Shown in pieces: positions 1 through 22,973 of a DNA stretch of 22,973 nucleotides. Position 1 is the first letter of the stretch. Every line of letters begins with the position of its first letter. Origin of the DNA: Saccoglossus kowalevskii (Eukaryota; Hemichordata; Enteropneusta; Harrimaniidae); NCBI RefSeq assembly GCF_000003605.2, contig NW_003123226.1, forward strand, positions 1 through 22,973. Reading direction: 5' to 3'. The notes under the pieces were generated by a model, which saw nothing but the letters and a program-made list of their open reading frames with translations, was not told where the DNA came from and made no database searches. The translations under genes and the position numbers were made by a program.

Positions 1-287
1 GCTTCACATATAAGCTGGTTATCACAATAGCGAACCGAGAAATCGGCGACAAACTGCTTACAAAGTTGTAAAAAGCGATTGCAAAAGTTGGTAGATTCAC
101 TCGGGATAGTTACCTGTGATATCATATTAACACGTCCCATAGTTAAAAGTTCGAAAATGTCACCTTATAGTTCGTAAATAGCCATTCAATTAGCGAAGTG
201 TTATTCGAGATATGAGGAGGTCATAGGTCAATATTAGAATGTACTTGTGCCAGCGATATCAATTTTAGAACATTCAAAACAAGAAAT

Positions 288-303
288 AGCCGTCAATTCG
301 GCT
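288..303 (+). other. Conserved short hairpin upstream of 5S-like segment (example copy)
   Basis: AGCCG and CGGCT form a perfect 5-bp inverted repeat around a TCAATT loop, ending 13 bp before the 5S-like segment. The same hairpin recurs at that place in nearly every unit. The stem is broken in the units at 883 (CGGAT, near 1249) and 6566 (CGCTT, near 6930). At 7514 only a loop base changes. No compensatory changes were seen, so conservation may reflect common descent only. Confidence 0.5.
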
Positions 304-316
304 CAAATTTAAATAA

Positions 317-425
317 TTCATGCAGCCGTGTGGTTAGGTGGGGGAACAATGTCTAAAGTAAAGCACAATCGGTCGTGGTTAGTGCTTGCATGGAAGACTC
401 CCTAAATAAAAAAAGTTGTTGGATG
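317..425 (+). pseudogene. 5S rRNA-derived segment, copy 0
   Basis: This is a degenerate 5S rRNA-like sequence. From about 350 onward it aligns without large gaps to the box A, intermediate element and box C region of animal 5S rRNA: AAGTAAAGCACAATCGGTCG, then TGGTTAGTGCTTGCATGG. The 3' end resembles the helix I strand (GTTGTTGGATG) and runs into a T7 tract at 426-432. The 5' third is poorly conserved and about 8-11 nt short. Against the other copies, box C has two private changes (TAGTGCTT for TAGTACTT; ATGGAAG for ATGGGAG). A functional 5S rRNA is very unlikely because helix I and the GGATGGG motif are damaged. Residual Pol III promoter activity is possible but unproven. Confidence 0.75.
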
Positions 426-1003
426 TTTTTTTCATTTTGTTACATCACGCAAATGGAAATGATATAGGCAACGTTTTTGCATTCTTCCTAACTGTGATGC
501 CACTCATTTATAATAGAGAATCGTGAAGTTTTCGTATTTTTTTAATTAATGCAAAGTTTTAAAATCCCTTCTAATTTTCCAGAATAAGTTGTTGATGCTG
601 TCGGCACGTAATAGTTTTTAAGCTGTTAACACAACGTGCAAAGTTGTTCAAAGTGATTGCAAAGTTATGCAAAGGGATAGCAATGATGGTAGATGTATTT
701 GTATATATGACCAAAGTTGTAGGCATGTCGAAACGCGCAGTTGTAAAGTCGACAAATTTAATAAAATCCAGTTGAAAGCAGCCTATATATGTTCACAAGA
801 ACAGACGTAAAATGTTAGAACACAGCGTGCAAAGTAGCAAACAAATTATTGAAATGTTGATGGCGTTAATCGTGAATTTAACCTAAGTCATTGGCATGAC
901 GACCCCGCAGTTAAATTTGGAAAATGTTAAGTGAATATCTCGAAAATGCCTCACATATAAGCTGGTTATCACAATAGCGAATCGAGAAATTATCGACAAA
1001 CTG

Positions 1004-1036
1004 CTTACAAAGTTGTAAAAAGCGATTGCAAAGTTG
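1004..1036 (+). repeat. Internal sub-repeat B (example in unit 1)
   Basis: TACAAAGTTGTAAAAAGCG followed by ATTGCAAAGTTGG resembles sub-repeat A about 580 bp further on in the same unit (near 1585-1617). Both are preceded by a GCTG(G)TTA-CACA motif. This suggests an old duplication within the unit. Confidence 0.6.
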
Positions 1037-1262
1037 GTAGATTCACTCGCGATAGTTACCTGTGATATCATATTAACTCGTCCCATAGTTAAAAGTTCGA
1101 AAATGTCACCTAATATTTCGTAAATAGCCATTAAATTAGCGAAGTGTTACTCGAGATATGAGAAGGTCATAGGTCAATATTAGAATGTACTTGTGCCAGC
1201 GATATCAATTTTAGAACATTGAAAACAAGAAATAGCCGTCAATTCGGATCAAATTTAAATAA

Positions 1263-2779: not shown

Positions 2780-3725
2780 CTAAGTCATTGGCATGACGAC
2801 CCCGCAGTTAAATTTGGAAAATGTTAAGTGAATATCTCGAATATGCCTCACATATAAGCTGGTTATCACAATAGCGAACCGAGAAATTGGCGACAAACTG
2901 CTTACAAAGTTGTAAAAAGCGATTGCAAAGTTGATAGATTTACTCGTGATAGTTACCTGTGATATCATATTAACACGTCCTATAGTTAAAAGTTCGAAAA
3001 TGTCACCTAATATTTCGTAAATAGCCATTAAATTAGCGAAGTGTTACTCGAGATATGAGGAGGTCATAGGACAATATTAGAATGTACTTGTGCCAGCGAT
3101 ATCAATTTTAGAACATTCAAAACAAGAAATAGCCGTCAATTCGGCTCAAATTTAAATAATCCACGCAGCCGTATGGTTAGGTGACCGAACAATGTCTAAA
3201 GTAAAGCACAATCGATCGTGGTTAGTACTTGCATGGGAGACTCCCTGAATAAAAGACTTGTTGGGTGTTTTTTTTCTTTTTGTTTCTTCACGCAAATGGA
3301 AATGATATATGCAACGTTTTTGCATTCTTTCTAACTGTGATGCCATTCATTTATAGTAGAGAATCATGAAGTTTTCGTATTTTTTTATTAATGCAAAGTT
3401 TTAAAGTCCCTTCTAATTTTCAAGAACAAGTTGTTGATGCTGTCGGCACGTATTGGGTTTTAAGCTGTTAACACAACGTGCAAAGTTGTTCAAAGTGATT
3501 GCAAAGTTGTGCAAAATGATAGAAATGTTGGTAGATGTATTGGTATATATGACCTACGTTGTTGGCATGTTGAAACGCGCAGTTGTAAAGTCGACAAATT
3601 TAATAAAAGCCAGTTGAAAGCAGCCTATATATGTTCACAAGAACAGACTGTAACATGTTAGAACACAGCGTGCAAAGTAGCAAACAAATTATTGAAATGT
3701 TGACGGTGTTGATCGTGTATTTAAC
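2780..3725 (+). repeat. Unit 3 (946 bp)
   Basis: Complete unit of the GATAGATTTACTCGTG / GGACAATATTAG / CCACGCAGCCGTATGG subtype. Its right part has TTTCTTCACGC, ATATGCAACG, GCCATTCATTTATAG and CCTACGTTG. Confidence 0.95.
3160..3267 (+). pseudogene. 5S rRNA-derived segment, copy 3
   Basis: The 5' side reads CCACGCAGCCGTATGG, the intermediate-element region ATCGATCG, and box C is the common form. The 3' end has TTGGGTG instead of TTGGATG. T8 follows at 3268-3275. Confidence 0.75.
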
Positions 3726-4673
3726 CTAAGTCATTGGCATGACGACCCCGCAGTTAAATTTGGAAAATGTTAAGTGAATATCTCGAAAATGCCTCACATA
3801 TAAGCTGGTTATCACAATAGCGAACCGAGAAATCGGCGACAAACTGCTTACAAAGTTGTAAAAAGCGATTGCAAAGTTCATAGATTCACTCGGGATAGTT
3901 ACCTGTGATATCATATTAACACGTCCCATAGTTAAAAGTTCGAAAATGTCACCTAATATTTCGTAAATAGCCATTAAATTAGCGAAGTGTTACTCGAGTT
4001 ATGAGGAGGTCATAGGTCAATATTAGAATGTACTTGTGCCAGCGATATCAATTTTAGAACATTCAAAACAAGAAATAGCCGTCAATTCGGCTCAAATTTA
4101 AATAATCCATGCAGCCGTGTGGTTAGGTGTCCGAACAATGTCTAAAGTAAAGCACAATCGGTTGTGGTTAGTACTTGCATGGGAGACTCCCTAAATAAAA
4201 GAGTTGTTGGATGTTTTCTTTCTTTTTGTTTCTTCACGCAAATGGAAATGATATATGCAACGTTTTTGCATTCTTTCTAACTGTGATGCCATTCATTTAT
4301 AGTAGAGAATCGTGAAGTTTTCGTATTTTTTTTAATTAATGCAAAGTTTTAAAATCCCTTCTAATTTTCCAGAACAAGTTGTTGATGCTGTCGGCACGTA
4401 ATGGGTTTTAAGCTGTTAACACAACGTGCAAAGTTGTTCAAAGTGATTGCAATGTTGTGCAAAATGATAGAAATGTTGGTAGATGTATTGGTATATATGA
4501 CCTACGTTGTTGGCATGTTGAAACGCGCAGTTGTAAAGTCGACAAATTTAATAAAAGCCAGTTGAAAGCAGCCTATATATGTTCACAAGAACAGACTGTA
4601 ACATGTTAGAACACAGCGTGCAAAGTAGCAAACAAATTATTGAAATGTTGACGGCGTTGATCGTGTATTTAAC
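3726..4673 (+). repeat. Unit 4 (948 bp)
   Basis: Complete unit of the GTTCATAGATTCACTCGGG / GAGTTATGAGG / GTGTCCG subtype. It forms the first half of a dimer with the following unit and closely matches the unit 1892 bp downstream (5618-6565). Confidence 0.95.
4106..4213 (+). pseudogene. 5S rRNA-derived segment, copy 4
   Basis: It has GTGTCCG, CGGTTGTGG and the common box C. The downstream T-tract is interrupted (TTTTCTTTCTTTTTG) but still begins with four Ts. Confidence 0.75.
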
Positions 4674-5617
4674 CTAAGTCATTGGCATGATGACCCCGCA
4701 GTTAAATTTGTAAAATGTTAAGTGAATATCTCGAAAATGCCTCACATATAAGCTGGTTATCACAATAGCGAACCGTGAAATCGACGACAAACTGCTTACA
4801 AAGTTGTAAAAAGCGATTGCAAAGTTGATAGATTTACTCGTGATAGTTACCTGTGATATCGTATTAACACGTCCCATAGTTAAAAGTTCGAAAATGTCAC
4901 CTGATATTTCGTAAATAGCCATTAAATTACTGAAGTGTTACTCGAGATATGAGGAGGTCATAGGACAATATTAGAATGTACTTGTGCCAGCGATATCAAT
5001 TTTAGAACATTCAAAACAAGAAATAGCCGTCAATTCGGCTCAAATTTAAATAATCCACGCAGCCGTATGGTTAGGTGACCAAACAATGTCTAAATTAAAG
5101 CAAAATCGGTCGTGTTTAGTACTTACATGGGAGAATCCCTGAATAAAAGAGTTGTTGGATGTTTTTTTTCTTTTTGTTTCTTCACGCAAATGGAAATGAT
5201 ATATGCAACGTTTTTGCATTCTTTCTAACTGTGATGCCATTCATTTATAGTAGAGAATCATGAAGTTTTTCGAATTTTTGTATTATGCAAAGTTTTAAAA
5301 TCCCTTCTAATTTTCAGAACAAGTTGTTGATGCTGTCGGCACGTATTGGGTTTTAAGCTGTTAATACAACGTGCAAAGTTGTTCAAAGTGATTGCAAAGT
5401 TGTGCAAAATGATAGAAATGTTGGTAGATGTATTGGTATATATGACCTACGTTGTTCGCATGTTGAAACGCGCAGTTGTAAAGTCGACAAATTTAATAAA
5501 AGCCAGTTGAAAGCAGCCTATATATGTTCACAAGAACAGACTGTAACATGTTAGAACACAGCGTGCAAAGTAGCAAACAAATTATTGAAATGTTGACGGC
5601 GTTGATCGTGTATTTAA
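4674..5617 (+). repeat. Unit 5 (944 bp)
   Basis: Complete unit of the GATAGATTTACTCGTG / GGACAAT subtype. AAATTTGTAAAATG (near 4704) is shared only with the unit exactly 1892 bp downstream (6566). A shortened ATTTTTGTATTATG tract near 5275 contributes to its lower length. Confidence 0.95.
5054..5161 (+). pseudogene. 5S rRNA-derived segment, copy 5 (most altered control region)
   Basis: It has more changes in the control region than most copies: AATTAAAGCAAAAT in the box A area, GTGTTTAGTACTTACATGG, and GAGAAT instead of GAGACT. The GACCAAAC variant recurs only in the unit at 20986. T8 follows at 5162-5169. Confidence 0.72.
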
Positions 5618-6565
5618 CTAAGTCATTGGCATGACGACCCCGCAGTTAAATTTGGAAAATGTTAAGTGAATATCTCGAAAATGTCTCACATATAAGCTGG
5701 TTATCACAGTAGCGAACCGAGAAATCGGCGACAAACTGCTTACAAAGTTGTAAAAAGCGATTGCAAAGTTCATAGATTCACTCGGGATAGTTACCTGTGA
5801 TATCATATTAACACGTCCCATAGTTAAAAGTTCGAAAATGTCACCTAATATTTCGTAAATAGCCATTAAATTAGCGAAGTGTTACTCGAGTTATGAGGAG
5901 GTCATAGGTCAATATTAGAATGTACTTGTGCCAGCGATGTCAATTTTAGAACATTCAAAACAAGAAATAGCCGTCAATTCGGCTCAAATTTAAATAATCC
6001 ATGCAGCCGTGTGGTTAGGTGTCCGAACAATGTCTAAAGTAAAGCACAATCGGTTGTGGTTAGTACTTGCATGGGAGACTCCCTAAATAAAAGAGTTGTT
6101 GGATGTTTTCTTTCTTTTTGTTTCTTCACGCAAATGGAAATGATATATGCAACGTTTTTGCATTCTTTCTAACTGTGATGCCATTCATTTATAGTAGAGA
6201 ATCGTGAAGTTTTCGTATTTTTTTTAATTAATGCAAAGTTTTAAAATCCCTTCTAATTTTCAAGAACAAGTTGTTGATGCTGTCGGCACGTAATGGGTTT
6301 TAAGCTGTTAACACAACGTGCAAAGTTGTTCAAAGTGATTGCAAAGTTGTGCAAAATGATAGAAATGTTGGTAGATGTATTGGTATATATGACCTACGTT
6401 GTTGGCATGTTGAAACGCGCAGTTGTAAAGTCGACACATTTAATAAAAGCCAGTTGAAAGCAGCCTATATATGTTCACAAGAACAGACTGTAACATGTTA
6501 GAACACAGCGTGCAAAGTAGCAAACAAATTATTGAAATGTTGACGGCGTTGATCGTGTATTTAAC
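5618..6565 (+). repeat. Unit 6 (948 bp)
   Basis: Complete unit, near-identical to unit 4 at a spacing of 1892 bp, including GTTCATAG, GAGTTATGAGG, GTGTCCG and TTTTCTTTC. The phase mark lacks one C (AACTAAG). Confidence 0.95.
5998..6105 (+). pseudogene. 5S rRNA-derived segment, copy 6
   Basis: By eye it matches copy 4: GTGTCCG, CGGTTGTGG, common box C, and a TTTTCTTTCTTTTTG tract downstream. Confidence 0.75.
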
Positions 6566-7513
6566 CTAAGTCATTGGCATGACGACCCCGCAGTTAAATT
6601 TGTAAAATGTTAAGTGAATATCTCGAAAATGCCTCACATATAAGCTGGTTATCACAATAGCGAACCGTGAAATCGGCGACAAACTGCTTACAAAGTTGTA
6701 AAAAGCGATTGCAAAGTTGATAGATTTACTCGTGATAGTTACCTGTGATATCATATTAACACGTCCCATAGCTAAAAGTTCGAAAATGTCACCTAATATT
6801 TCGTAAATAGCCATTAAATTAGTGAAGTGTTACTCGAGATATGAGGAGGTCATAGGACAATATTAGAATGTACTTGTGCCAGCGATATCAATTTTAGAAC
6901 ATTCAAAACAAGAAATAGCCGTCAATTCGCTTCAAATTTAAATAATCCACGCAGCCGTATGGTTAGGTGACCGAACTATGTCTAAAGTAAAGCACAATCG
7001 GTCGTGGTTAGTACTTGCATGGGAGACTCCCTGAATAAAAGAGGTGTTGGATGTTTTTTTTTCTTTTTGTTACATCACGCAAATGGAAATGATATATGCA
7101 ACGTTTTTGCATTCTTTCTAACTGTGATGCCATTCATTTATAGTAGAGAATCATGAAGTTTTCGTATTTTTTTAATTAATGCCAAGTTTTAAAATCCCTT
7201 CTAATTTTCAAGAACAAGTTGTTGATGCTGTCGGCACGTAATGGGTTTTAAGCTGTTAAACACAACGTGCAAAGTTGTTCAAAGTGATTGCAAAAGTTGT
7301 GCAAAATGATAGAAATGTTGGTAGATGTATTGGTATATATGACCTACGTTGTTGGGCATGTTGAAACGCGCAGTTGTAAAGTCGACAATTTAATAAAAGC
7401 CAGTTGAAGCAGCCATATATGTTCACAGAACAGACTGTAACATGTTAGAACACAGCGTGCAAAGTAGCAAACAAATTATTGAAATGTTCGACGGCGTTGA
7501 TCGTGTATTTAAC
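6566..7513 (+). repeat. Unit 7 (948 bp), with a cluster of single-base indels
   Basis: Complete unit pairing with unit 5 (shared AAATTTGTAAAATG). Within 7258-7490 it shows at least eight single-base insertions or deletions against all neighbours: GTTAAACAC, GCAAAAGTTG, GTTGGGCATG, GACAATTTAAT, TTGAAGCAG, GCCATATATG, CACAGAACAG and ATGTTCGACGG. The net effect on length is small. Confidence 0.93.
6946..7053 (+). pseudogene. 5S rRNA-derived segment, copy 7
   Basis: It has CCACGCAGCCGTATGG, GACCGAACTATG, the common box C, and GAGGTGTTGG at the 3' end. T9 follows at 7054-7062. Confidence 0.75.
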
Positions 7514-7542
7514 CTAAGTCATTGGCATGACGACCCCGCAGT

Positions 7543-7760
7543 TAAATTTGGAAAATGTTAAGTGAATATCTCGAAAATGCCTCACATATAAGCTGGTTAT
7601 CACAATAGCGAACTGAGAAATCGGCGACAAACTGCTTACAAAGTGGTAAAAAGCGATTGCAAAGTTGGTAGATTCACTCGAGATAGTTATCTGTGATATC
7701 ATATTAACATATCCCACAGATAAAAGTTCGAAAATGTCAATAATATTTCGTAAATAGCCG
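7543..7760 (+). repeat. First copy of internal 218-bp duplication
   Basis: The segment from TAAATTTGG to ATAGCCG corresponds to the left ~220 bp of a unit. It ends where a normal unit would continue ATAGCCATTAAATTAGCG. It has private variants (TTATCTGTG, CATATCCCACAGATAAAAG, GTCAATAAT) that are absent from the second copy. Confidence 0.9.
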
Positions 7761-7978
7761 TAAATTTGGAAAATATTAAGTGAATATCTCGAAAATGCCT
7801 CACATATAAGCTGGTTATCAAAATAACGAACCGAGAAATCGGCGACAAACTGCTTACAAAGTTGTAAAAAGCGATTGCAAAGTTGGTGGATTTACTCGGG
7901 ATAGTTACCTGTGATATCATATTAACACGTCCAATAGCTAAAAGTTCGAAAATGTCACCTAATATTTCGTAAATAGCC
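7761..7978 (+). repeat. Second copy of internal 218-bp duplication
   Basis: It restarts at TAAATTTGGAAAATATTAAG and continues into a full unit. It differs from the first copy at many positions (GGTGGATTTACTCGGG against GGTAGATTCACTCGAG). The two therefore probably came from different units through misaligned exchange, or the event is old. TTAAATT occurs at both normal breakpoint positions. Confidence 0.9.
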
Positions 7979-8111
7979 ATTAAATTAGCGAAGTGTTACT
8001 CGAGATATGAGGAGGTCATAGGTCAATTCTAGAATGTACTTGTGCCAGCGATATCAATTTTAGAACATTCAAAACAAGAAATAGCCGTCAACTCGGCTCA
8101 AATTTAAATAG

Positions 8112-8219
8112 TCCAGGCAGCCGTGTGGTTAGGTGACTGAACTATGTCTAAAGTAAAGCACAATCGGTCGTGGTTAGTACTTGCACGGGAGACTCCCTAA
8201 ATAAAAAAGTTGTTGGATG
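8112..8219 (+). pseudogene. 5S rRNA-derived segment, copy 8
   Basis: The start is GTCCAGGCAG instead of ATCCATGCAG. It has GTGACTGAACTATG and the CTTGCACGGG box C variant shared with copy 1. T7 follows at 8220-8226. Confidence 0.74.
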
Positions 8220-8677
8220 TTTTTTTCTTTTTGTTACATCACGCAAATGGAAATGATATATGCAACGTTTTTGCATTCTTTCTAACTGTGGTGCCACTCA
8301 TTTATTTTAAAGAATCGTGAAGTTTTCGTATTTTTTTTAATTAATGCAAAGTTTTAAAATCCCTTCTAATTTTCCAGAACAAGTTGTTGATGCTGTCGGC
8401 ACGTAATAGTTTTTAAGCTGTTAACACAACGTGCAAAGTTGTTCAAAGTGATTGCAAAGTTGTGAAAAGGGATAGCAATGATGGTGGATGTATTTGTATA
8501 TATGACCTAGTTGTTGGCATGTTGAAACGCGCAGTTGTAAAGTCGACAAATTTAATAAAAGCCAGTTGAAAGCAGCCTATATTTGTTCACAAGAATATAC
8601 TGTAACATGTTAGAACACAGCGTGCAAAGTAGCAAACAAATTATTGAAATGTTGACGGCGTTGATCGTGTATTTAAC

Positions 8678-9620
8678 CTAAGTCATTGGCATGACGACCC
8701 CGCAGTTAAATTTGGAAAATGTTAAGTGAATATCTCGAAAATGCCTCACTAAGCTGGTTATCACAATAGCGAACCGAGAAATCGGCGACAAACTGCTTAC
8801 AAAGTTGTAAAAAGCGATTGCAAAGTTCATAGATTCACTCGGGATAGTTACCTGTGATATCATATTAACACGTCCCATAGTTAAAAGTTCGAAAATGTCA
8901 CCTAATATTTCGTAATTAGCCATTAAATTAGCGAAGTGTTACTCGAGTTATGAGGAGGTCATAGGTCAATATTAGAATGTACTTGTGCCAGCGATATCAA
9001 TTTTAGAACATTCAAAACAAGAAATAGCCGTCAATTCGGCTCAAATTTAAATAATCCATGCAGCCGTGTGGTTAGGTGTCCGAACAATGTCTAAAGTAAA
9101 GCACAATCGGTTGTGGTTAGTACTTGCATGGGAGACTCCCTAAATAAAAGAGTTGTTGGATGTTTTCTTTCTTTTTGTTTCTTCACGCAAATGGAAATGA
9201 TATATGCAACGTTTTTGCATTCTTTCTAACTGTGATGCCATTCATTTATAGTAGAGAATCGTGAAGTTTTCGTATTTTTTTTAATTAATGCAAAGTTTTA
9301 AAATCCCTTCTAATTTTCCAGAACAAGTTGTTGATGCTGTCGGCACGTAATGGGTTTTAAGCTGTTAACACAACGTGCAAAGTTGTTCAAAGTGATTGCA
9401 AAGTTGTGCAAATGATAGCAATGATGGTAGATGTATTTGTATATATGACCTACGTTGTTGGCATGTTGAAACGCGCAGTTGTAAAGTCGACAAATTTAAT
9501 AAAAGCCAGTTGAAAGCAGCCTATATATGTTCACAAGAACAGACTGTAACATGTTAGAACACTGCGTGCAAAGTAGCAAACAAATTATTGAAATGTTGAA
9601 GGCGTTGATCGTGTATTTAA
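8678..9620 (+). repeat. Unit 9 (943 bp)
   Basis: Complete unit of the GTTCATAG / GTGTCCG subtype. A 3-bp loss gives CCTCACTAAGCTGG, and GTAATTAGCC is shared with the units at 19090 and 20986. The distal part is hybrid (GCAAATGATAGCAATGATGG with CCTACGTTG). Confidence 0.95.
9055..9162 (+). pseudogene. 5S rRNA-derived segment, copy 9
   Basis: It has GTGTCCG, CGGTTGTGG, the common box C and an interrupted TTTTCTTTC tract, as in copies 4 and 6. Confidence 0.75.
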
Positions 9621-10568
9621 CTAAGTCATTGGCATGACGACCCCGCAGTTAAATTTGGAAAATGTTAAGTGAAAATCTCGAAAATGCCTCACATATAAGC
9701 TGGTTATCACAATAGCGAACCGTGAAATCGGCGACAAACTGCTTACAAAGTTGTAAAAAGCGATTGCAAAGTTGATAGATTTACTCGTGATAGTTACCTG
9801 TGATATCATATTAACACGTCCCATAGTTAAAAGTTCGAAAATGTCACCTAATATTTCGTAAATAGCCATTAAATTAGCGAAGTGTTACTCGAGATATGAG
9901 GAGGTCATAGGACAATATTAGAATGTACTTGTGCCAGCGATATCAATTTTAGAACATTCAAAACAAGAAATAGCCGTCAATTCGGCTCAAATTTAAATAA
10001 TCCACGCAGCCGTATGGTTAGGTGACCGAACAATGTCTAAAGTAAAGCACAATCGGTCGTGGTTAGTACTTGCATGGGAGACTCCCTGAATAAAAGAGTT
10101 GTTGGATGTTCTTTTTCTTTTTGTTTCTTCACGCAAATGGAAATGATATATGCAACGTTTTTGCATTCTTTCTAACTGTGATGCCATTCATTTATAGTAG
10201 AGAATCGTGAAGTTTTCGTATTTTTTTTAATTAATGCAAAGTTTTAAAATCCCTTCTAATTTTCCAGCACAAGTTGTTGATGCTGTCGGCACGTAATGGG
10301 TTTTAAGCTGTTAACACAACGTGCAAAGTTGTTCAAAGTGATTGCAAAGTTGTGCAAAATGATAGCAATTATGGTAGATGTATTTGTATATATGACCTAC
10401 GTTGTTGGCATGTTGAAACGCGCAGTTGTAAAGTCGACAAATTTAATAAAAGCCAGTTGAAAGCAGCCTATATATGTTCACAAGAACAGACTGTAACATG
10501 TTAGAACACTGCGTGCAAAGTAGCAAACAAATTATTGAAATGTTGAAGGCGTTGATCGTGTATTTAAC
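9621..10568 (+). repeat. Unit 10 (948 bp)
   Basis: Complete unit of the GATAGATTTACTCGTG / GGACAAT subtype. GTGAAAATCTCG (near 9669) is shared with the unit at 11516. AGCAATTATGG is shared with the next unit. Confidence 0.95.
10001..10108 (+). pseudogene. 5S rRNA-derived segment, copy 10
   Basis: It has CCACGCAGCCGTATGG, GTGACCG, CGGTCGTGG and the common box C. The first downstream T-tract is broken (TTCTTTTTCTTTTTG), so any Pol III stop would fall a few bases later. Confidence 0.75.
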
Positions 10569-12463: not shown

Positions 12464-13408
12464 CTAAGTCATTGGCATGACGACCCCGCGTTTAAATTTG
12501 GAAAATGTTAAGTGAATATCTCGAAAATGCCTCACATATAAGCTGGTTATCACAATAACGAACCGAGAAATCGGCGACAAACTGCTTACAAAGTTGTAAA
12601 AAGCGATTGCAAAGTTGGTAAATTTACTCGGGATAGTTACCTATGATATCATATTAACACGTCCCATAGCTAAAAGTTCGAAAATGTCACCTAATATTTC
12701 GTAAATAGCCATTAAATTAGCGAAGTGTTACTCGAGATATGAGGAGGTCATAGGTCAATTCTAGAATGCACTTGTGCCAGCGATATCAATTTTAGAACAT
12801 TCAAAACAAGAAATAGCCGTCAATTCGGCTCAAATTTAAATAATCCATGCAGCCGTGTGGTTAGGTGACCGAACAACGTCTAAAGTAAAGCACAATCGGT
12901 CGTGGTTAGTACTTGCATAGGAGACTCCCTGAATAAAAAAATTGTTCGATGTTTTTTCTTTTTGTTACATCACACAAATGGAAATGATATAGGCAACGTT
13001 TTTTCATTTTTCCTAACTGTGATGCCACTCATTTATAATAGAGAATCGTGAAGTTTTCGTATTTTTTTAATTAATGCAAAGTTTTAAAATTCCTTCTAAT
13101 TTTCCAGAACAAGTTGTTGATGCTGTCGGCACGTAATAGTTTTTAAGCTGTTAACACAACGTGCAAAGTTGTTCAAAGTGATTGCAAAGTTGTGCAAAGG
13201 GATAGCAATGATGGTAGATGTATTTGAATATATGACCTAAGTTGTTGGCATGTTGAAACGGGCAGTTGTAAAGTCGACAAATTTAATTAAAGCCAGTTGA
13301 AAGCAGCCTATATATGTTCACAAGAACAGACTGTAAAATGTTAGAACACAGCGTTCAATGTAGCAAACAAATTATTGAAATGTTGACGGCGTTGATCGTG
13401 TATTTAAC
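12464..13408 (+). repeat. Unit 13 (945 bp)
   Basis: Complete unit with CCCCGCGTTTAAATT, GGTAAATTTACTCGGG, ATAGCTAAAAG and AATTCTAGAATG. The distal part has GAAACGGGCAG and AATTTAATTAAAGCC, shared with unit 12. Confidence 0.95.
12844..12951 (+). pseudogene. 5S rRNA-derived segment, copy 13
   Basis: It has GACCGAACAACGTC, the CTTGCATAGG box C and a private TTGTTCGATG at the 3' end. T6 follows. Confidence 0.74.
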
Positions 13409-13788
13409 CTAAGTCATTGGCATGACGACCCCGCATTTAAATTTGGAAAAAGTTAAGTGAATATCTCAAAAATGCCTCACATATAAGCTGGTTATCACAA
13501 TAGCGAACCGTGAAATCGGCGACAAACTGCTTACAAAGTTGTAAAAAGCGATTGCAATGTTGATTGATTCACTGGGGATAGTTACCTGTGATATCATATT
13601 AACACGTCCCATAGCTAAAAGTTCGAAAATGTCACCTAATATTTCGTAAATAGCCATTAAAATAGAGAAGTGTTACTCGAGATATGAGGAGGTCATAGGT
13701 CAATTCTAGAATGTACTTGTGCCAGCGATATCAATTTTAGAACATTCAAAACAAGAAATAGCCGTCAATTCGGCTCAAATTTAAATAA

Positions 13789-13896
13789 TCCATGCAGCCG
13801 TGTGGTTAGGTTATCGAACAATGTCTAAAGTAAAGCACAATCGGGCGTGGTTAGTACTTGCATAGGAGACCCCCTGAATAAAAAAGGTGTTGGATG
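13789..13896 (+). pseudogene. 5S rRNA-derived segment, copy 14 (closest to canonical 5S in the core)
   Basis: The core reads TCGGGCGTGGTTAGTACTTG (13841-13860), then CATAGGAGACCCCCTG. The TCGGGCG intermediate element and GAGACC are the canonical animal 5S forms, which other copies have lost (TCGGTCG/TCGGTTG and GAGACT). The downstream tract is TTTGTTTTTTC. Confidence 0.78.
13827..13874 (+). promoter_or_regulatory. Putative Pol III type 1 internal control region (representative, copy 14)
   Basis: In 5S genes, TFIIIA binds box A, the intermediate element and box C inside the gene. Here AAAGTAAAGCACAA (13827-13840) lies in the box A place, TCGGGCG (13841-13847) in the intermediate-element place, and CTTGCATAGGAGACCCC (13858-13874) in the box C place, with spacing like 5S. 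The TTGGATGG to TTGCATAG change hits box C. The order and spacing are visible; activity is inferred only. Confidence 0.5.
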
Positions 13897-14356
13897 TTTG
13901 TTTTTTCTTTTTGTTACATCACGCAAATGGAAATGATATTGGCAACGTTTTTGCATTCTTCCTACCTGTGATGCCACTCATTTATAATTGAGAATCGTGA
14001 AGTTTTCGTATTTTTTTATTAATGCAAAGTTTTAAAATCCCTTCTAATTTTCCAGAACAAGTTGTTGATGCTGTCGGCACGTAATAGTTTTTAAGCTGTT
14101 AACACAACGTGCAAAGTTGTTCAAAGTGATTGCAAAGTTGTGCAAAGGGATAGCAATGATGGTAGATGTATTTGTATATATGACCTAAGTTGTTGGCATA
14201 TTGAAACGCGCAGTTGTAAAGTCGACAAATTTAATGAAAGCCAGTTGAAAGCAGCCTATATATGTTCACAAGAACAGACAGTAAAATGTTAGAACACAGC
14301 GTGCAAAGTAGCAAACAAATTATTGAAATGTTTACGGCGTTGATCGTCTATTTAAC

Positions 14357-15304
14357 CTAAGTCATTGGCATGACAACCCCGCATTTAAATTTGGAAAATA
14401 TTAAGTGAATATCTCGAAAATGCCTCACATATAGGCTGGTTATCACAATAGCGAACCGTGAAATCGGCGACAAACTGCTACAAAGTTGTAAAAAGCGAAT
14501 GCAAAGTTGATAGATTTACTCGGGATAGTTACCTGTGAAATCATATTAACACGTCCCATAGCTAAAAGTTCGAAAATGTCACCTAATATTTCGTAAATAG
14601 CCATTAAATTAGCGAAGTGTTACCCGGGATATGAGGAGGTCATAGGTCAATATTAGAATGTACTTGTGCCAGCGATATCAATTTGAGAAGATTCAAAACA
14701 AGAAATAGCCGTCAATTCGGCTCAAATTTAAATAATCCATGCAGCCGTGTGGTTAGGTGACCGAACAATGTCTAAAGTAAAGCACAATCGGTCGTGGTTA
14801 GTACTTGCATGGGAGACTCCCTAAATAAAAAAAAAAGTTGTTGGATGTTTTTCTCATTTTGTTACATCACGCAAATGGAAATGATATAGGCAACGTTTTT
14901 GCATTCTTCCTAACTGTGGTGCCACTCATTTATATTAGAGAATCGTGAAGTTTTCGTTTTTTTTAATTAATGCAAAGTTTTAAAATCCCTTCTAATTGTC
15001 CAGAACAAGTTGTTGATGCTGTCGGCACGTAATGGGTTTTAAGCTGTTAACACAACGTGCAAAGTTGTTCAAAGTGATTGCAAAGTTGTGCAAAATGATA
15101 GAAATGTTGGTAGATGTATTGTTATATATGACCTAAGTTGATGGCATATAGAAACGCGCAGTTGTGAAGTCGACAAATTTAATAAAAGCCAGTTGAAAGC
15201 AGCCTATATATGTTCACAAGAACAGACTGTAACATGTTAGAACACTGCGTGCAAAGTAGCAAACAAATTATTGAAATGTTGACGGCGTTGATTGTGTATT
15301 TAAC
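14357..15304 (+). repeat. Unit 15 (948 bp)
   Basis: Complete unit. From ATTTGAGAAG (14681) to about 15040 it is nearly identical to the next unit at a 949-bp shift. The distal CATATAGAAACGCGCAG and TTGTGAAG variants match unit 1, fourteen units upstream. Confidence 0.95.
14736..14847 (+). pseudogene. 5S rRNA-derived segment, copy 15
   Basis: It has GTGACCG, CGGTCGTGG and the common box C (14804-14818), followed by an expanded run of 10 As (AATAAAAAAAAAAG) before GTTGTTGGATG. T5 follows. Confidence 0.75.
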
Positions 15305-16252
15305 CTAAGTCATTGGCATGACGACCCCGCATTTAAATTTGGAAAATGTTAAGTGAATATCTTGAAAATGCCTCACATATAAGCTGGTTATCACAATAGC
15401 GAACCGAGAAATCGGCGACAAACTGCTTACAAAGTTGTAAAAAGCGATTGCAAAGTTGATAGATTCACTCGGGATAGTTACCTGTGATATCATATTAACA
15501 CGTTCCATAGTTAAAAGTTCGAAAATGTCACCTAATATTTCGTAAATAGCCATTAAATTAGCGAAGTGTTACTCGAGATATGAGGAGGTCATAGGTCAAT
15601 ATTAGAATGTACTTGTGCCAGCTATATCAATTTGAGAAGATTCAAAACAAGAAATAGCCGTCAATTCGGCTCAAATTTAAATAATCCATGCAGCCGTGTG
15701 GTTAGGTGACCGAACAATGTCTAAAGTAAAGCACAATCGGTCGTGGTTAGTACTTGCATGGGAGACTCCCTAAATAAAAAAAAAAGTTGTTGGATGTTTT
15801 TCTCATTTTGTTACATCACGCAAATGGAAATGATATAGGCAACGTTTTTGCATTCTTCCTAACTGTGGTGCCACTCATTTATATTAGAGAATCGTGAAGT
15901 TTTCGTTTTTTTTAATTAATGCAAAGTTTTAAAATCCCTTCTAATTGTCCAGAACAAGTTGTTGATGCTGTCGGCACGTAATGGGTTTTAAGCTGTTAAC
16001 ACAACGTGCAAAGTTGTTCAAAGTGATTGCAAAGTTGTGCAAATGATAGAAATGTTGGTAGATGTATTGGTATATATAACCTACGTTGTTGGCATGTTGA
16101 AACGCGCAGTTGTAATGTCGACAAATTTAATAAAAGCCAGTTGAAAGCAGCCTATATATGTTCACAAGAACAGACTGTAACATGTTAGAACACAGCGTGC
16201 AATGTAGCAAACAAATTATTGAAATGTTGACGGCGTTGATCGTGTATTTAAC
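15305..16252 (+). repeat. Unit 16 (948 bp)
   Basis: Complete unit. The left part matches unit 2 (GATAGATTCACTCGGG, GCTATATCAATTT), and the middle matches unit 15 (TTTGAGAAGATTC, TAATTGTCCAG). The distal part has TATATATAACCTACG, which recurs in unit 18. Confidence 0.95.
15685..15796 (+). pseudogene. 5S rRNA-derived segment, copy 16
   Basis: By eye it is identical to copy 15, including the 10-A run and the TTTTTCTC tract. This is consistent with recent duplication of the unit. Confidence 0.75.
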
Positions 16253-17198
16253 CTAAGTCATTGGCATCACGACCCCGCAGTTAAATTTGGAAAATGTTAA
16301 GTGAATATCTCGAAAATGCCTCACATATAAGCTGGTTATCACAATAGCGAACCGAGAAATCGGCGACAAACTGCTTACAAAGTTGTAAAAAGCGATTGCA
16401 AAGTTCATAGATTCACTCGGGATAGTTATCTGTGATATCATATTAACACGTCCCATAGTTAAAAGTTTGAAAATGTCACCTAATATTTCGTAAATAGCCA
16501 TTAAATTAGCGAAGTGTTACTCGAGTTATAAGGAGGTCATAGGTCAATATTAGAATGTACTTGTGCCAGCGATATCAATTTTAGAACATTCAAAACAAGA
16601 AATAGCCGTCAATTCGGCTCAAATTTAAATAATCCATGCAGCCGTGTGGTTAGGTGTCCGAACAATGTCTAAAGTAAAGCACAATCGGTCGTGGTTAGTA
16701 CTTGCATGGGAGACTCCCTAAATAAAAATGTTGTAGGATGTTTTGTTCTTTTTGTTACATCACGCAAATGGAAATGATATAGGCAACGTTTTTGCATTCT
16801 TTCTATCTGTGATGCCACTCATTTATAGTAGAGAATCGTGAAGTTTTCGTATTTTTTTAATTAATGCAAAGTTTTAAAATCCCTTCTAATTTTCAAGAAC
16901 AAGTTGTTGATGCTGTCGGCACGTAATGGGTTTGAAGCTGTTAACACAACGTGCAAGGTTGTTCAAAGTGATTGCAAAGTTGTGCAAAATGCTAGAAATG
17001 TTGGTAGATGTATTGGTATATATGACCTACGATGTTGGCATGTTGAAACGCGCAGTTGTAAAGTCGACAAATTTAATAAAAGCCAGTTGAAAGCAGCCTA
17101 TATATGTTCACAAGAACAGACTGTAACATGTTAGAACATAGCGTGCAAAGTAGCAAACAAATTATTGAAATATTGACCGCGTTGATCGTGTATTTAAC
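16253..17198 (+). repeat. Unit 17 (946 bp)
   Basis: Complete unit with GGCATCACG at the phase mark, shared only with the unit 1892 bp downstream (18145). The left part is the GTTCATAG / GTGTCCG subtype. The middle has TTACATCACGC, ATAGGCAACG and CTATCTGTG. Confidence 0.95.
16633..16740 (+). pseudogene. 5S rRNA-derived segment, copy 17
   Basis: It has GTGTCCG with CGGTCGTGG, a combination different from copies 4, 6 and 9. Box C is common; the 3' end is TTGTAGGATG. The downstream tract is TTTTGTTCTTTTTG. Confidence 0.75.
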
Positions 17199-18144
17199 CT
17201 AAGTCATTGGCATGACGACCCCGCAGTTAAATTTGGAAAATGTTAAGTGAATATCTCGAAAATGCCTCACATATAAGCTGGTTATCACAATAGAGAACCG
17301 AGAAATCGGCGACAAACTGCTTACAAAGTTGTAAAAAACGATTGCAAAGTTCAAAGATTCACTCGGGATAGTTATCTGTGATATCATATTAACACGTCCC
17401 ATAGTTAAAAGTTTGAAAATGTCACCTAATATTTCGTAAATAGCCATTAAATTAGCGAAGTGTTACTCGAGTTATGAGGAGGTCATAGGTCAATATTAGA
17501 ATGTACTTGTGCCAGCGATATCAATTTTAGAACATTCAAAGCAAGAAATAGCCGTCAATTCGGCTCAAATTTAAATAATCCATGCAGCCGTGTGGTTAGG
17601 TGTCCGAACAATGTCTAAAGTAAAGCACAATCGGTTGTGGTTAGTACTTGCATGGGAGACTCCCTAAATAAAAAAGTTGTTGGATGTTTTTTTCTTTTTG
17701 TTACATCACGCAAATGGAAATGATATATGCAACGTTTTTGTATTCTTTCTAACTGTGGTGCCACTCATTTATATTAGAGAATCGTGAAGTTTTCGTATTT
17801 TTTTTAATTAATGCAAAGTTTTAAAATCCCTTCTAATTTTCAAGAACAAGTTGTTGATGCTGTCGGCACGTAATGGGTTTTAAGCTGTTAACACAACGTG
17901 CAAAGTTGTTCAAAGTGATTGCAAAGTTGTGCAAATGATAGAAATGTTGGTAGATGTATTGGTATATATAACCTACGTTGTTGGCATGTTGAAACGCGCA
18001 GTTGTAAAGTCGACAAATTTAATAAAAGCCAGTTGAAAGCAGCCTATATATGTTCACAAGAACAGACTGTAACATATTAGAACACAGCGTGCAATGTAGC
18101 AAACAAATTATTGAAATGTTGACGGCGTTGATCGTGTATTTAAC
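17199..18144 (+). repeat. Unit 18 (946 bp)
   Basis: Complete unit with GTTCAAAGATTCACTCGGG and ATAGAGAAC. From about 17290 on it is close to the next unit (TTTTTGTATTC, GTGGTGCCACTC and TTATATTAG in both). Confidence 0.95.
17579..17686 (+). pseudogene. 5S rRNA-derived segment, copy 18
   Basis: It has GTGTCCG, CGGTTGTGG and the common box C. T7 follows. Confidence 0.75.
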
Positions 18145-19089
18145 CTAAGTCATTGGCATCACGACCCCGCAGTTAAATTTGGAAAATGTGTAAGTGAATA
18201 TCTCGAAAATGCCTCACATATAAGCTGGTTATCACAATAGAGAAACGAGAAATCGGCGACAAACTGCTTACAAAGTTGTAAAAAGCGATTGCAAAGTTCA
18301 AAGATTCACTCGGGATAGTTATCGGTGATATCATATTAACACGTCCCATAGTTAAAAGTTTGAAAATGTCACCTAATATTTCGTAAATAGCCATTAAATT
18401 AGCGAAGTGTTACTCGAGTTATGAGGAGGTCATAGGTCAATATTAGAATGTACTTGTGCCAGCGATATCAATTTTAGAACATTCAAAACAAGAAATAGCC
18501 GTCAATTCGGCTCAAATTTAAATAATCCATGCAGCCGTGTGGTTAGGTGTCCGAACAATGTCTAAAGTAAAGCACAATCGGTTGTGGTTAGTACTTGCAT
18601 GGGAGACTCCCTAAATAAAAAAGTTGTTGGATGTTTTTTTCTTTTTGTTACATCACGCAAATGGAAATGATATATGCAACGTTTTTGTATTCTTTCTAAC
18701 TGTGGTGCCACTCATTTATATTAGAGAATCGTGAAGTTTTCGTATTTTTTTTAATTAATGCAAAATTTTAAAATCCCTTCTAATTTTCCAGAACAAGTTG
18801 TTGATGCTGTCGGCACGTAATAGATTTTAAGCTGTTAACACAACGTGCAAAGTTGTTCAAAGTGATTGCAAAGTTGTGAAAAGGGATAGCAATGATGGTA
18901 GAAGTATTTGTATATATGACCTAAGTTGTTGGCATGTTGAAACGCGCAGTTGTAAAGTCGACAAATTTAATAAAAGCCAGTTGAAAGCAGCCTATATATG
19001 TTCACAGACAGACTGTAACATGTTAGACACAGCGTGCAAAGTAGCAAACAAATTATTGAAATGTTGACGGCGTTGATCGTGTATTTAAC
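18145..19089 (+). repeat. Unit 19 (945 bp)
   Basis: Complete unit. The start resembles unit 17 (GGCATCACG), the middle matches unit 18, and the distal part switches to GGGATAGCAATGATGG / CCTAAG. Private changes are AATGTGTAAGTG (near 18187) and small deletions at CACAGACAGAC and GTTAGACAC (19003-19030). Confidence 0.95.
18526..18633 (+). pseudogene. 5S rRNA-derived segment, copy 19
   Basis: It matches copy 18: GTGTCCG, CGGTTGTGG, common box C, T7. Confidence 0.75.
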
Positions 19090-20037
19090 CTAAGTCATTG
19101 GCATGACGACCCCGCAGTTAAATTTGGAAAATGTTAAGTGAATATCTCGAAAATGCCTCACATATAAGCTGGTTATCACAATAGCGAACCGAGAAATCGG
19201 CGACAAACTGCTTACAAAGTTGTAAAAAGCGATTGCAAAGTTCATAGATTCACTCGGGATAGTTACCTGTGATATCATATTAACACGTCCCATAGTTAAA
19301 AGTTCGAAAATGTCACCTAATATTTCGTAATTAGCCATTAAATTAGCGAAGTGTTACTCGAGTTATGAGGAGGTCATAGGTCAATATTAGAATGTACTTG
19401 TGCCAGCGATATCAATTTTAGAACATTCAAAACAAGAAATAGCCGTCAATTCGGCTCAAATTTAAATAATCCATGCAGCCGTGTGGTTAGGTGTCCGAAC
19501 AATGTCTAAAGTAAAGCACAATCGGTTGTGGTTAGTACTTGCATGGGAGACTCCCTAAATAAAAGAGTTGTTGGATGTTTTTTTTCTTTTTGTTTCTTCA
19601 CGCAAATGGAAATGATATATGCAACGTTTTTGCATTCTTTCTAACTGTGATGCCATTCATTTATAGTAGAGAATCGTGAAGTTTTCGTATTTTTTTTAAT
19701 TAATGCAAAGTTATAAAATCCCTTCTAATTTTCCAGAACAAGTTGTTGATGCTGTCGGCACGTAATGGGTTTTAAGCTGTTAACACAACGTGCAAAGTTG
19801 TTCAAAGTGATTGCAAAGTTGTGCAAAATGATAGCAATGATGGTAGATGTATTTGTATATATGACCTACGTTGTTGGCATGTTGAAACGCGCAGTTGTAA
19901 AGTCGACAAATTTAATAAAAGCCAGTTGAAAGCAGCCTATGTATGTTCACAAGAACAGACTGTAACATGTTAGAACACTGCGTGCAAAGTAGCAAACAAA
20001 TTATTGAAATGTTGAAGGCGTTGATCGTGTATTTAAC
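19090..20037 (+). repeat. Unit 20 (948 bp)
   Basis: Complete unit of the GTTCATAG / GTGTCCG subtype with GTAATTAGCC. AGTTATAAAATCCC (near 19709) and CCTATGTATGTTC (near 19936) are shared only with the next unit. Confidence 0.95.
19470..19577 (+). pseudogene. 5S rRNA-derived segment, copy 20
   Basis: It has GTGTCCG, CGGTTGTGG and the common box C. An uninterrupted T8 follows, unlike its close relatives 4, 6, 9 and 21. Confidence 0.75.
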
Positions 20038-20985
20038 CTAAGTCATTAGCATGACGACCCCGCAGTTAAATTTGGAAAATGTTAAGTGAATATCTCGAAA
20101 ATGCCTCACATATAAGCTGGTTATCACAATAGCGAACCGTGAAATCGGCGACAAACTGCTTACAAAGTTGTAAAAAGCGATTGCAAAGTTGATAGATTTA
20201 CTCGTGATAGTTACCTGTGATATCATATTAACACGTCCCATAGTTAAAAGTTCGAAAATGTCACCTAATATTTCGTAAATAGCCATTAAATTAGCGAAGT
20301 GTTACTCGAGTTATGAGGAGGTCATAGGTCAATATTAGAATGTACTTGTGCCAGCGATATCAATTTTAGAACATTCAAAACAAGAAATAGCCGTCAATTC
20401 GGCTCAAATTTAAATAATCCATGCAGCCGTGTGGTTAGGTGTCCGAACAATGTCTAAAGTAAAGCACAATCGGTTGTGGTTAGTACTTGCATGGGAGACT
20501 CCCTAAATAAAAGAGTTGTTGGATGTTTTCTTTCTTTTTGTTTCTTCACGCAAATGGAAATGATATATGCAACGTTTTTACATTCTTTCTAACTGTGATG
20601 CCATTCATTTATAGTAAAGAATCGTGAAGTTTTCGTATTTTTTTTAATTAATGCAAAGTTATAAAATCCCTTCTAATTTTCCAGAACAAGTTGTTGATGC
20701 TGTCGGCACGTAATGGGTTTTAAGCTGTTAACACAACGTGCAAAGTTGTTCAAAGTGATTGCAAAGTTGTGCAAAATGATAGCAATGATGGTAGATGTAT
20801 TTGTATATATGACCTACGTTGTTGGCATGTTGAAACGCGCAGTTGTAAAGTCGACAAATTTAATAAAAGCCAGTTGAAAGCAGCCTATGTATGTTCACAA
20901 GAACAGACTGTAACATGTTAGAACACTGCGTGCAAAGTAGCAAACAAATTATTGAAATGTTGAAGGCGTTGATCGTGTATTTAAC
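20038..20985 (+). repeat. Unit 21 (948 bp), chimera
   Basis: The left ~250 bp are the GATAGATTTACTCGTG subtype. From GAGTTATGAGG / GGTCAATATTAG onward it is the GTGTCCG subtype. It shares TTAGCATGACG at its phase mark with the next unit, and the distal variants with unit 20. Confidence 0.95.
20418..20525 (+). pseudogene. 5S rRNA-derived segment, copy 21
   Basis: It has GTGTCCG, CGGTTGTGG and the common box C. The TTTTCTTTC tract matches copies 4, 6 and 9. Confidence 0.75.
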
Positions 20986-21931
20986 CTAAGTCATTAGCAT
21001 GACGACCCCGCAGTTAAATTTGGAAAATGTTAAGTGAATATCTCGAAAATGCCTCACATATAAGCTGGTTATCACAATAGCGAAACGTGAAATCGGCGAC
21101 AAACTGCTTACAAAGTTGTAAAAAGCGATTGCAAACTTCATAGATTCACTCGGGATAGTTACCTGTGATATCATATTAACACGTCCCATAGTTAAAAGTT
21201 CGAAAATGTCACCTAATATTTCGTAATTAGCCATTAAATTAGCGAAGTGTTACTCGAGTTATGAGGAGGTCATAGGACAATATTAGAATGTACTTGTGCC
21301 AGCGATATCAATTTTAGAACATTCAAAACAAGAAATAGCCGTCAATTCGGCTCAAATTTAAATAATCCACGCAGCCGTATGGTTAGGTGACCAAACAATG
21401 TCTAAAGTAAAGCACAATCGGTCGTGGTTAGTACTTGCATGGGAGACTCCCTGAATAAAAGACTTGTTGGATGTTTTTTTTCTTTTTGTTTCTTCACGCA
21501 AATGGAAATGATATATGCAACGTTTTTGCATTCTTTCTAACTGTGATGCCATTCATTTATAGTAGAGAATCATGAAGTTTTCGTATTTTTGTATTAATGC
21601 AAAGTTTTAAAATCCCTTCTAATTTTCAAGAACAAGTTGTTGATGCTGTCGGCACGTATTGGGTTTTAAGCTGTTAATACAACGTGCAAAGTTGTTCAAA
21701 GTGATTGCAAAGTTGTGCAAAATGATAGAAATGTTGGTAGATGTATTGGTATATATGACCTACGTTGTTGGCATGTTGAAACGCGCAGTTGTAAAGTCGA
21801 CAAATTTAATAAAAGCCAGTTGAAAGCAGCCTATATATGTTCACAAGAACAGACTGTAACATGTTAGAACACAGCGTGCAAAGTAGCAAACAAATTATTG
21901 AAATGTTGACGGCGTTGATCGTGTATTTAAC
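20986..21931 (+). repeat. Unit 22 (946 bp), reciprocal chimera
   Basis: The left part is the TTCATAGATTCACTCGGG / GTAATTAGCC / GAGTTATGAGG subtype. From GGACAATATTAG onward it is the CCACGCAGCCGTATGG subtype, the opposite arrangement to unit 21. The right part resembles unit 5 (GACCAAAC, TTTTTGTATTA, GTATTGGG, GTTAATACAACG). Confidence 0.95.
21366..21473 (+). pseudogene. 5S rRNA-derived segment, copy 22
   Basis: It has CCACGCAGCCGTATGG, GACCAAAC (as in copy 5) and an intact common box C, with GACTTGTTGG as in copy 3. T8 follows. Confidence 0.75.
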
Positions 21932-22878
21932 CTAAGTCATTGGCATGACGACCCCGCAGTTAAATTTGGAAAATGTTAAGTGAATATCTCGAAAATGCCT
22001 CACATATAAGCTGGTTATCACAATAGCGAACCGAGAAATCGGCGACAAACTGCTTACAAAGTTGTAAAAAGCGATTGCAAAGTTCATAGATTCACTCGGG
22101 ATAGTTACCTGTGATATCATATTAACACGTCCCATAGTTAAAAGTTCGAAAATGTCACCTGATATTTCGTAAATAGCCATTAAATTAGCGAAGTGTTATT
22201 CGAGATATGAGGAGGTCATAAGTCAATATTAGAATGTACTTGTGCCAGCGATATCAATTTTAGAACATTCAAAACAAAAAATAGCCGTCAATTCGGCTCA
22301 AATTTAAATAATCCATGCAGCCGTGTGGTTAGTTGACCGAACAATGTCTAAAGTAAAGCGCAATCGGTCGTGGTTAGTACTTGCATAGGAGACTCCCTGA
22401 ATAAAAAAGTTGTTGGATGTTTTTTTTCTTTTTGTTACATCACGCAAATGGAAATGATATAGGCAACGTTTTTGCATTCTTCCGAACTGTGATGCCACTC
22501 ATTTATAATAGAGAATCGTGAAGTTTTCGAATTTTTTTAATTAATGCAAAGTTTTAAAATCCCTTCTAATTTTCCAGAACAAGTTGTTGATGCTGTCGGC
22601 ACGTAATAGTTTTTAAGCTGTTAACACAACGTGCAAAGTTGTTCAAAGTGATTGCAAAGTTGTGCAAAGGGATAGCAATGATGGTAGATGTATTTGTATA
22701 TATGACCTAAGTTGTTGGCATGTTGAAACGCGCAGTTGTAAAGTCGACAAATTTAATAAAAGCCAGTTGAAAGCAGCCGATATATGTTCACAAGAACAGA
22801 CTGTAACATGTTAGAACACAGCGTGCAAAGTAGCAAACAAATTATTGAAATGTTGTCGACGTTGATTGTGTATTTAAC
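21932..22878 (+). repeat. Unit 23 (947 bp)
   Basis: Last complete unit. The left part is the GTTCATAG subtype; the middle and distal parts are the TTACATCACGC / ATAGGCAACG / GGGATAGCAATGATGG type. It has a private TTGTCGACGTTG near 22853. Confidence 0.95.
22312..22419 (+). pseudogene. 5S rRNA-derived segment, copy 23
   Basis: It has GTTAGTTGACCG, AAAGCGCAATCGG in the box A area, and the CTTGCATAGG box C. T8 follows. Confidence 0.74.
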
Positions 22879-22973
22879 CTAAGTCATTGGCATGACGACC
22901 CCGCATTTAAATTTGGAAAATGTTAAGTGAATATCTGGAAAATGCCTCACATATAAGCTGGTTATCACAATAG
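22879..22973 (+). repeat. Unit 24 (partial, cut by window end)
   Basis: The first 95 bp of a further unit (phase mark, GCATTTAAATTTGG, ATCTGGAAAATG, TAAGCTGGTTATCAC). The array therefore continues past the window. Confidence 0.95.

Follow-up and report, generated by a model that had tools for sequence, protein, structure and literature searches.

Tandem satellites that carry part of a 5S rRNA gene have been described in frogs, fish and Plantago. In frogs, the tandem satellite PcP190 contains a region with about 70% likeness to the 5S gene, and transcripts have been reported; as described there, this region takes up 120 bp of each ~190-bp repeat (PMC11675491). In the account of 5SHindIII-DNA from Hoplias fish, a partial 5S gene makes up 95 bp of a 360-bp tandem unit, and the other 265 bp resemble 5S spacer (PMC2713275). 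PLsatB of Plantago, as its description gives it, holds fragments of both the 5S gene and the 5S spacer (PMC11202950). Mobile elements provide a second set of parallels. Ajax TRIMs are described as having lost the 5S fold and as retaining nothing of 5S beyond its box A, IE and box C portion, and the same account describes lepidopteran SINE3 elements with a more conserved promoter and diverged upstream sequence; elements of both kinds have defined ends (PMC10886601). The LTR-based Cassandra is described as occurring in plants as long tandem arrays; each unit has a 5S promoter and terminator, and the arrays resemble 5S rRNA genes (PMC7215508).

The DNA analysed here, called the window, is a whole contig of Saccoglossus kowalevskii (NW_003123226.1, positions 1 to 22,973, forward strand). 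It is a tandem array of ~948-bp units, and both contig ends still lie within the array. There are 24 full units spanning 5-22947, arranged head-to-tail in a single orientation, with a mean pairwise identity of 95.9%. Near-identical units can be non-adjacent, with identity of up to 99.5% for the units at 8747 and 19159. One short unit of 218 bp (7583-7800, forward strand) fuses unit positions 1-186 to 911-950; it has lost ~730 bp, with a junction over 6 bp, and is without the 5S block. The sole open reading frame of at least 90 amino acids in the window (93 amino acids) overlaps this short unit and was set aside. A tRNA search of the window found none, and all Rfam matches to it were far under gathering scores (the best being 20 bits against 50). 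A blastn search of phages, plasmids and E. coli and exact-pattern searches of viral contigs and GTDB genomes gave no match to the window sequence.

Each full unit carries a 5S-derived block on the forward strand. Coordinates are given in register with 5S 1-121, the clear match being confined to 49-91. The blocks lie at 308-428 (unit at 5), 1254-1376 (unit at 952), 2204-2325 (unit at 1902), 3151-3271 (unit at 2849), 4097-4217 (unit at 3795), 5045-5165 (unit at 4743), 5989-6109 (unit at 5687), 6937-7058 (unit at 6635), 8103-8222 (unit at 7801), 9046-9166 (unit at 8747), 9992-10112 (unit at 9690), 10940-11060 (unit at 10638), 11887-12008 (unit at 11585), 12835-12953 (unit at 12533), 13780-13902 (unit at 13478), 14727-14850 (unit at 14426), 15676-15799 (unit at 15374), 16624-16743 (unit at 16322), 17570-17689 (unit at 17268), 18517-18636 (unit at 18215), 19461-19581 (unit at 19159), 20409-20529 (unit at 20107), 21357-21477 (unit at 21055) and 22303-22423 (unit at 22001). 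As an earlier note on this DNA had reported, all 24 full units show box A, IE and box C-like sequences in order, with a T-tract about where the 3' end is expected; this tract has four or more T in every full unit.

Evidence for a 5S origin came from the primary sequence. An ungapped 43-nt block corresponding to 5S positions 49-91 is identical to the host's own 5S gene at 37 of 43 positions, including 25 consecutive identities. Against four eukaryotic 5S genes, the best local score was 46, which none of 500 dinucleotide shuffles reached; the shuffles, scored in the same way, had a mean of 20.2, a standard deviation of 2.1 and a maximum of 30. When the window family (A) and two sister families (B and D) were anchored on box C and compared jointly, the register was kept without indels over approximately 5S 20-119, with as-good positions numbering 2 of 692 for 5S 20-48, 3 of 692 for 31-48 and 5 of 692 for 92-119. 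The joint match for 5S 1-30 was no better than background (236 of 692 positions as good), so the source need not have been a whole gene. For the window family alone, the match to the host gene is weak over 5S 92-119 (32 of 948 positions as good) and at or near background over 5S 1-48. The proposal that the 5' third is diverged thus describes the window family by itself, and does not extend to the three families taken jointly, which match from about 5S 20. Judging by these sequence comparisons, the satellite block is a descendant of a 5S gene.

The block is not a functional 5S gene, since it neither scores nor folds as 5S rRNA. Searched whole or in parts with the RF00001 covariance model, the window gave no match at E up to 10. 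A home-made 5S model reached at best 7.9 bits (E 1.3) on the window, with four of five weak matches falling on blocks, and the consensus 5S segment folded no better than shuffles (z -0.64). The poor fold described earlier was therefore borne out by Rfam, by the home-made model and by folding against shuffles. A conserved RNA stem within the block was considered and rejected; it was present in single folds, but by eye was broken in some copies. Together with the primary-sequence match and the cross-family register, the lost fold supports the suggestion that the 5S segment was altered before amplification. The sequence GCATGG, which had been put forward as common damage, is found literally in 17 of 24 units, and the C that creates it in all 24. 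However, the intact host 5S genes examined likewise read GCATGG, so this base is not damage. A lineage's normal 5S base can pass for pseudogene damage, and caution is warranted.

The host's functional 5S genes lie in arrays with units of ~1.14 kb and ~1.58 kb, and score 105-113 bits with RF00001 among the matches listed. In tandem layout, unit length and uniform orientation the window is like 5S rDNA, which could suggest that the gene and spacer of an ordinary 5S rDNA cluster degenerated together in situ. The rest of the unit argues against this. The earlier note had pointed to the functional spacers as a comparison for the remainder of about 830-840 bp, and no similarity beyond shuffles was found for either spacer kind: in four comparisons, 160, 48, 197 and 61 of 200 shuffles were equal or better. 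The unit is therefore not a decayed 5S rDNA repeat plus spacer, and decay in place is very improbable. The same genome also contains a separate 216-bp satellite whose 5S-like gene is full-length and shows compensated pair changes. Its 14 RF00001 matches in two 1.5-kb loci all exceed the gathering score, and Rfam annotation would label it 5S rRNA. Four diagnostic sites bear on whether the block came from the functional gene or from this satellite, and they split evenly (the satellite is favored at 5S 47 and 61, the functional gene at 25 and 30), with total matches about equal. A literature search on a 216-bp 5S satellite, or on satellitomes with 5S likeness, found no paper, and a search for literal sequence words of the repeat found none.

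These features place the locus among the described systems. PcP190 has a far shorter repeat and a longer 5S-like region than the window, where a 948-bp unit has a clear match of 43 nt; by description rather than sequence comparison, the 216-bp satellite is its closer parallel. Like PLsatB, the window contains 5S gene sequence, but the remainder of its unit is unlike host spacers, in contrast to the spacer parts described for PLsatB and 5SHindIII-DNA. Like Ajax as described, the block is without the 5S fold. The window is a 5S-derived satellite of a known general kind, a new example rather than a new phenomenon.

Sister families with units of 944, 728 and 957 bp carry the same 5S block. In this genome, 7,499 sites matched the box C 25-mer with at most two mismatches, a count that includes 5S genes and the 216-bp repeat. 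At the same threshold, 4,672 sites matched a non-5S motif of the unit; reversed-pattern controls gave 0 in both cases. Within the window, diversity of the 5S core is 0.043, against a unit average of 0.041, and 78 of 130 windows of the unit are as low or lower; no copy-level constraint is thus seen in this array. Between families, the promoter half (box A through box C) has diverged less than most other parts of the unit, an effect of modest strength. When A, B and D are compared, conservation peaks in the 43-column core (40 of 43), which holds a 25-nt stretch matching the host gene exactly, but conservation of box C in this comparison is discounted, since it was through box C that B and D had been found. 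The one fair test is A against family F, since neither was found by box C, F being represented by three units of one contig. A and F are 75.1% identical overall, with 23 of 25 positions identical in box C (12 of 902 windows reach that) and 38 of 43 in the core (19 of 925), placing the block in the top 1-2% of windows.

One interpretation of these data is that selection keeps a working internal Pol III promoter, or a TFIIIA/TFIIIC site, which might serve a short satellite RNA or a satellite chromatin anchor. This is a rather unlikely explanation, as is the wider proposal that the block is the selected part of a satellite superfamily whose arrays, with units of 728 to 957 bp, retain a putative TFIIIA/TFIIIC-binding site captured from a 5S gene. 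Under that proposal, only units with an intact site would be amplified and copies outside arrays would lose it. The A-F comparison, the conserved A/B/D core, even with B and D selected by box C, and the T-run in every full unit favor such selection, as do three long-contig copies located with the non-5S motif, in which box C has two of 25 positions changed, four of 25 changed, or is absent. Against it, the block shows no extra conservation inside the window, where 9 of 24 units depart from the commonest box C sequence. In B and D, both found through box C, diversity as low as that of box C recurs in 94 of 922 and 432 of 706 windows, respectively, and diversity as low as that of the 43-nt core in 314 of 901 and 226 of 685. 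Moreover, F is represented by three units of one contig, and the dispersed copies number three.

Less probable still is a mobile element, of SINE3 type or a TRIM of the Cassandra or Ajax kind, that has a promoter derived from 5S and was amplified in tandem. Such arrays can resemble 5S rDNA, the ordered box A, IE and box C are as in those elements, Ajax provides a precedent for a block without the fold, and dispersed copies of the satellite family occur in long contigs. However, no defined ends were seen in a small sample of six fetched copies: five show an end, each at a different unit position as limited by BLAST, with starts near 350, 654 and 734 and ends near 66, 126, 241, 629 and 718 on the consensus. 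In addition, the 5S register extends beyond box C to the T-run, more than Ajax is described as retaining (PMC10886601).

The array is probably a non-coding satellite with a captured 5S gene copy, spreading by unequal crossing-over, with its promoter half decaying slowest. One 5S rRNA gene copy of the host lineage would have become joined to an AT-rich repetitive body unrelated to it, and the composite unit would then have been amplified and split into families of 728 to 957 bp, an order of events that we infer. The tandem structure suggests turnover by unequal crossing-over and gene conversion, as do the 218-bp deletion unit and the near-identical non-adjacent units. The likeness of A and F in box C and the core is not predicted by plain decay and counts against this explanation; the slower change may reflect chance, or something may bind the promoter half. 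This one genome offers functional 5S genes, a 216-bp full-length 5S-like satellite and long promoter-half satellites for side-by-side comparison. Should selection be acting on the promoter half, the family would provide a testable example of satellite work done by a Pol III factor site.

Twenty-four full units of ~948 bp lie head to tail across 5-22947, with a mean pairwise identity of 95.9% (range 92.8-99.5%). The window is one entire contig (C1587) of a 572-Mb host assembly of 4,830 contigs, and the array extends to both contig ends, neither of which lies outside it; unit counts are those within the contig. The array also includes a short unit of 218 bp (7583-7800) in which unit positions 1-186 are fused to 911-950 with a 6-bp overlap at the junction, and which therefore lacks the 5S segment. 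The deletion that produced this short unit removed about 730 bp. Nearly identical units are found at non-adjacent positions, the closest pair being those at 8747 and 19159 (99.5%). From these distant pairs and the deletion unit, we infer unequal exchange and conversion. The unit at 6635-7582 appears by eye to contain a cluster of one-base insertions or deletions in short runs, a pattern that might reflect sequencing error and not biology.

The 5S likeness of the block, as judged from primary sequence, is clear. The unit consensus scored 46 against four eukaryotic 5S genes, while 500 shuffles gave a mean of 20.2 and a maximum of 30; this match has no gaps and spans 5S positions 49-91. Over this 43-nt core, the consensus is identical to the host’s intact 5S gene at 37 of 43 positions, with 25 consecutive identities. 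The Rfam 5S model found no match in the window, searched whole and in parts, at E values up to 10. Our own covariance model, built from six 5S genes, reached at best 7.9 bits (E 1.3), with four of its five weak matches on 5S blocks and on the right strand. Hence, the 5S origin proposed in the earlier note is borne out by nucleotide similarity but not by covariance models. We give the nucleotide similarity more weight because a lost fold explains the failure of the models. Upstream of box C, CCATGCA at consensus positions 313-319 is complementary to the TGCATGG of box C at 381-387, a pairing that by eye is broken in some copies.

The earlier note had also regarded GCATGG, in place of GGATGG, as damage. 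This view does not survive comparison with the host’s intact 5S genes, since all five distinct copies inspected read GCATGG. GCATGG is the normal sequence of this host, and it ties the block to the host’s own 5S lineage; the literal motif is present in 17 of the 24 window units, and its C in all 24. The host 5S gene looks animal-like. A genome search with RF00001 gave at least 47 matches, all above the cut-off; scoring covered 47 of the 18,217 candidates from the first look. Functional 5S genes occur in two kinds of array, with spacings of about 1.14 kb and 1.58 kb (loci L009, L010 and L011 on other contigs). One spacer of each kind gave an uncontrolled mutual local score of 43.

When the 829 bp outside the block were compared with one host spacer of each kind, using 200 shuffles per comparison, shuffles did as well or better in 160, 48, 197 and 61 of 200 cases. 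The likeness of the body to both spacer kinds is thus at shuffle level, and the unit is therefore not a host 5S rDNA repeat that decayed. By sequence comparison, the unit is a 5S copy placed inside an unrelated repetitive body. Faint internal repeats in the body, at offsets near 170-190 bp or multiples (consensus 46-91/645-690, 624-640/816-832, 697-738/869-909 and 136-174/906-944), hint that the satellite body grew out of a shorter repeat.

Related repeats are abundant. Across the whole genome, allowing up to 2 mismatches, a box C 25-mer matches at 4,566 forward and 2,933 reverse sites, and its reversed control at none. Reading some of the first places among the box C matches listed yielded family B (944 bp; 51 units, read in six stretches on five contigs; by consensus 84% to family A, that of the window), family D (728 bp; 10 units on one contig), E (a diverged two-unit locus) and a 216-bp satellite (194 monomers in five stretches). 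A non-5S unit motif has 3,040 + 1,632 genome matches within 2 mismatches, with none for its control, and led to family F (957 bp; three units, the third partial, on one contig). By arithmetic rather than census, 4,672 units of about 0.9 kb would amount to roughly 4 Mb, or 0.7% of the assembly.

For the window family alone, in-register likeness to 5S 1-48 is at or near background: of the 948 unit positions, 76 do as well with the sea urchin gene, 269 with that of Xenopus, 22 with Drosophila, 76 with C. elegans and 121 with the host gene. For 5S 92-118, the corresponding numbers are 2, 3, 79 and 14 of 948, with 32 of 948 for host 5S 92-119, a likeness that ranges from suggestive to weak. A joint slide of families A, B and D against the host gene covered 692 positions. 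As good a score was reached at 2 positions for 5S 20-48, 3 for 31-48, 5 for 92-119, 12 for 92-105, 43 for 106-119 and 236 for 1-30. Because of this joint register, the ancestor probably carried about 5S 20-119 free of indels, a longer stretch than can be seen in the window family by itself.

Within the window, there is no sign of selection on the core: its diversity is 0.0426, against an overall 0.0411, and a value as low or lower occurs in 78 of 130 windows. In the A/B/D alignment, the core ranks first in conservation among 43-column windows (40/43), a result that is biased because box C was the means of finding B and D. The fair pair is families A and F. They agree at 75.1% overall, at 23/25 positions of box C (equalled by 12 of 902 windows) and at 38/43 of the core (equalled by 19 of 925). 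Of three long-contig copies found by the non-5S motif, two have 2 and 4 changes in the 25 positions of box C, and the third lacks any box C within 9 changes. This one fair comparison and the three other copies suggest, as a lead, that box C changes more slowly in the arrays.

The 216-bp satellite (loci L033, L035, L036, L037, L038, L046 and L048 on other contigs) carries a full-length, 120-nt 5S-like region whose consensus differs from the host gene at 10 places, one of them an insertion. Eight of the 10 fall in paired columns; three pairs have changed on both sides yet remain paired, and none is broken. In 5,000 random placements, at least three compensated pairs arose in 1 and no broken pair in 3. 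The structure used was a joint fold of the consensus and the host gene, which favours that structure somewhat; folded singly, the two give nearly the same structure. These compensated and unbroken pairs indicate that the 5S part was evolving as a structured 5S RNA until, or during, its conversion into a satellite. Single copies have since become diverse, at 0.098 within the 5S region and 0.135 elsewhere. Rfam counts the repeat as 5S rRNA, with 14 matches in two 1.5-kb loci of this satellite that score 48-92 bits and all exceed the gathering score of 38; in five long-family loci (L032, L045, L047, L049 and L050), it has no match at E values up to 1. The satellite may represent a second class of 5S gene, either past or still active. 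In arrays L033, L037 and L038, the distance between some adjacent box C sites is just 117-118 bp, which would fit a loss of most of the spacer. Either the 216-bp repeat or the functional 5S gene may have been the source of the window block.

Satellites derived from 5S are already known: PcP190 in frogs (PMC11675491), 5SHindIII-DNA in Hoplias (PMC2713275) and PLsatB (named in PMC11202950). The window family differs from the 5SHindIII type in that the rest of its unit is not 5S spacer, and size and composition set it apart from PcP190. Like Ajax (PMC10886601), the window family retains mainly the promoter part of 5S, but among six dispersed copies of the family, five with an end, no two ends agree, in what is a small sample. 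Among the papers that literature searches listed, none describes a repeat that could be tied to the ~948-bp unit, which is weak evidence of novelty. The best reading is that a 5S gene copy was captured by a repetitive body, and that the composite unit would then have been amplified by recombination and split into families, its RNA fold decaying and its promoter half decaying more slowly.
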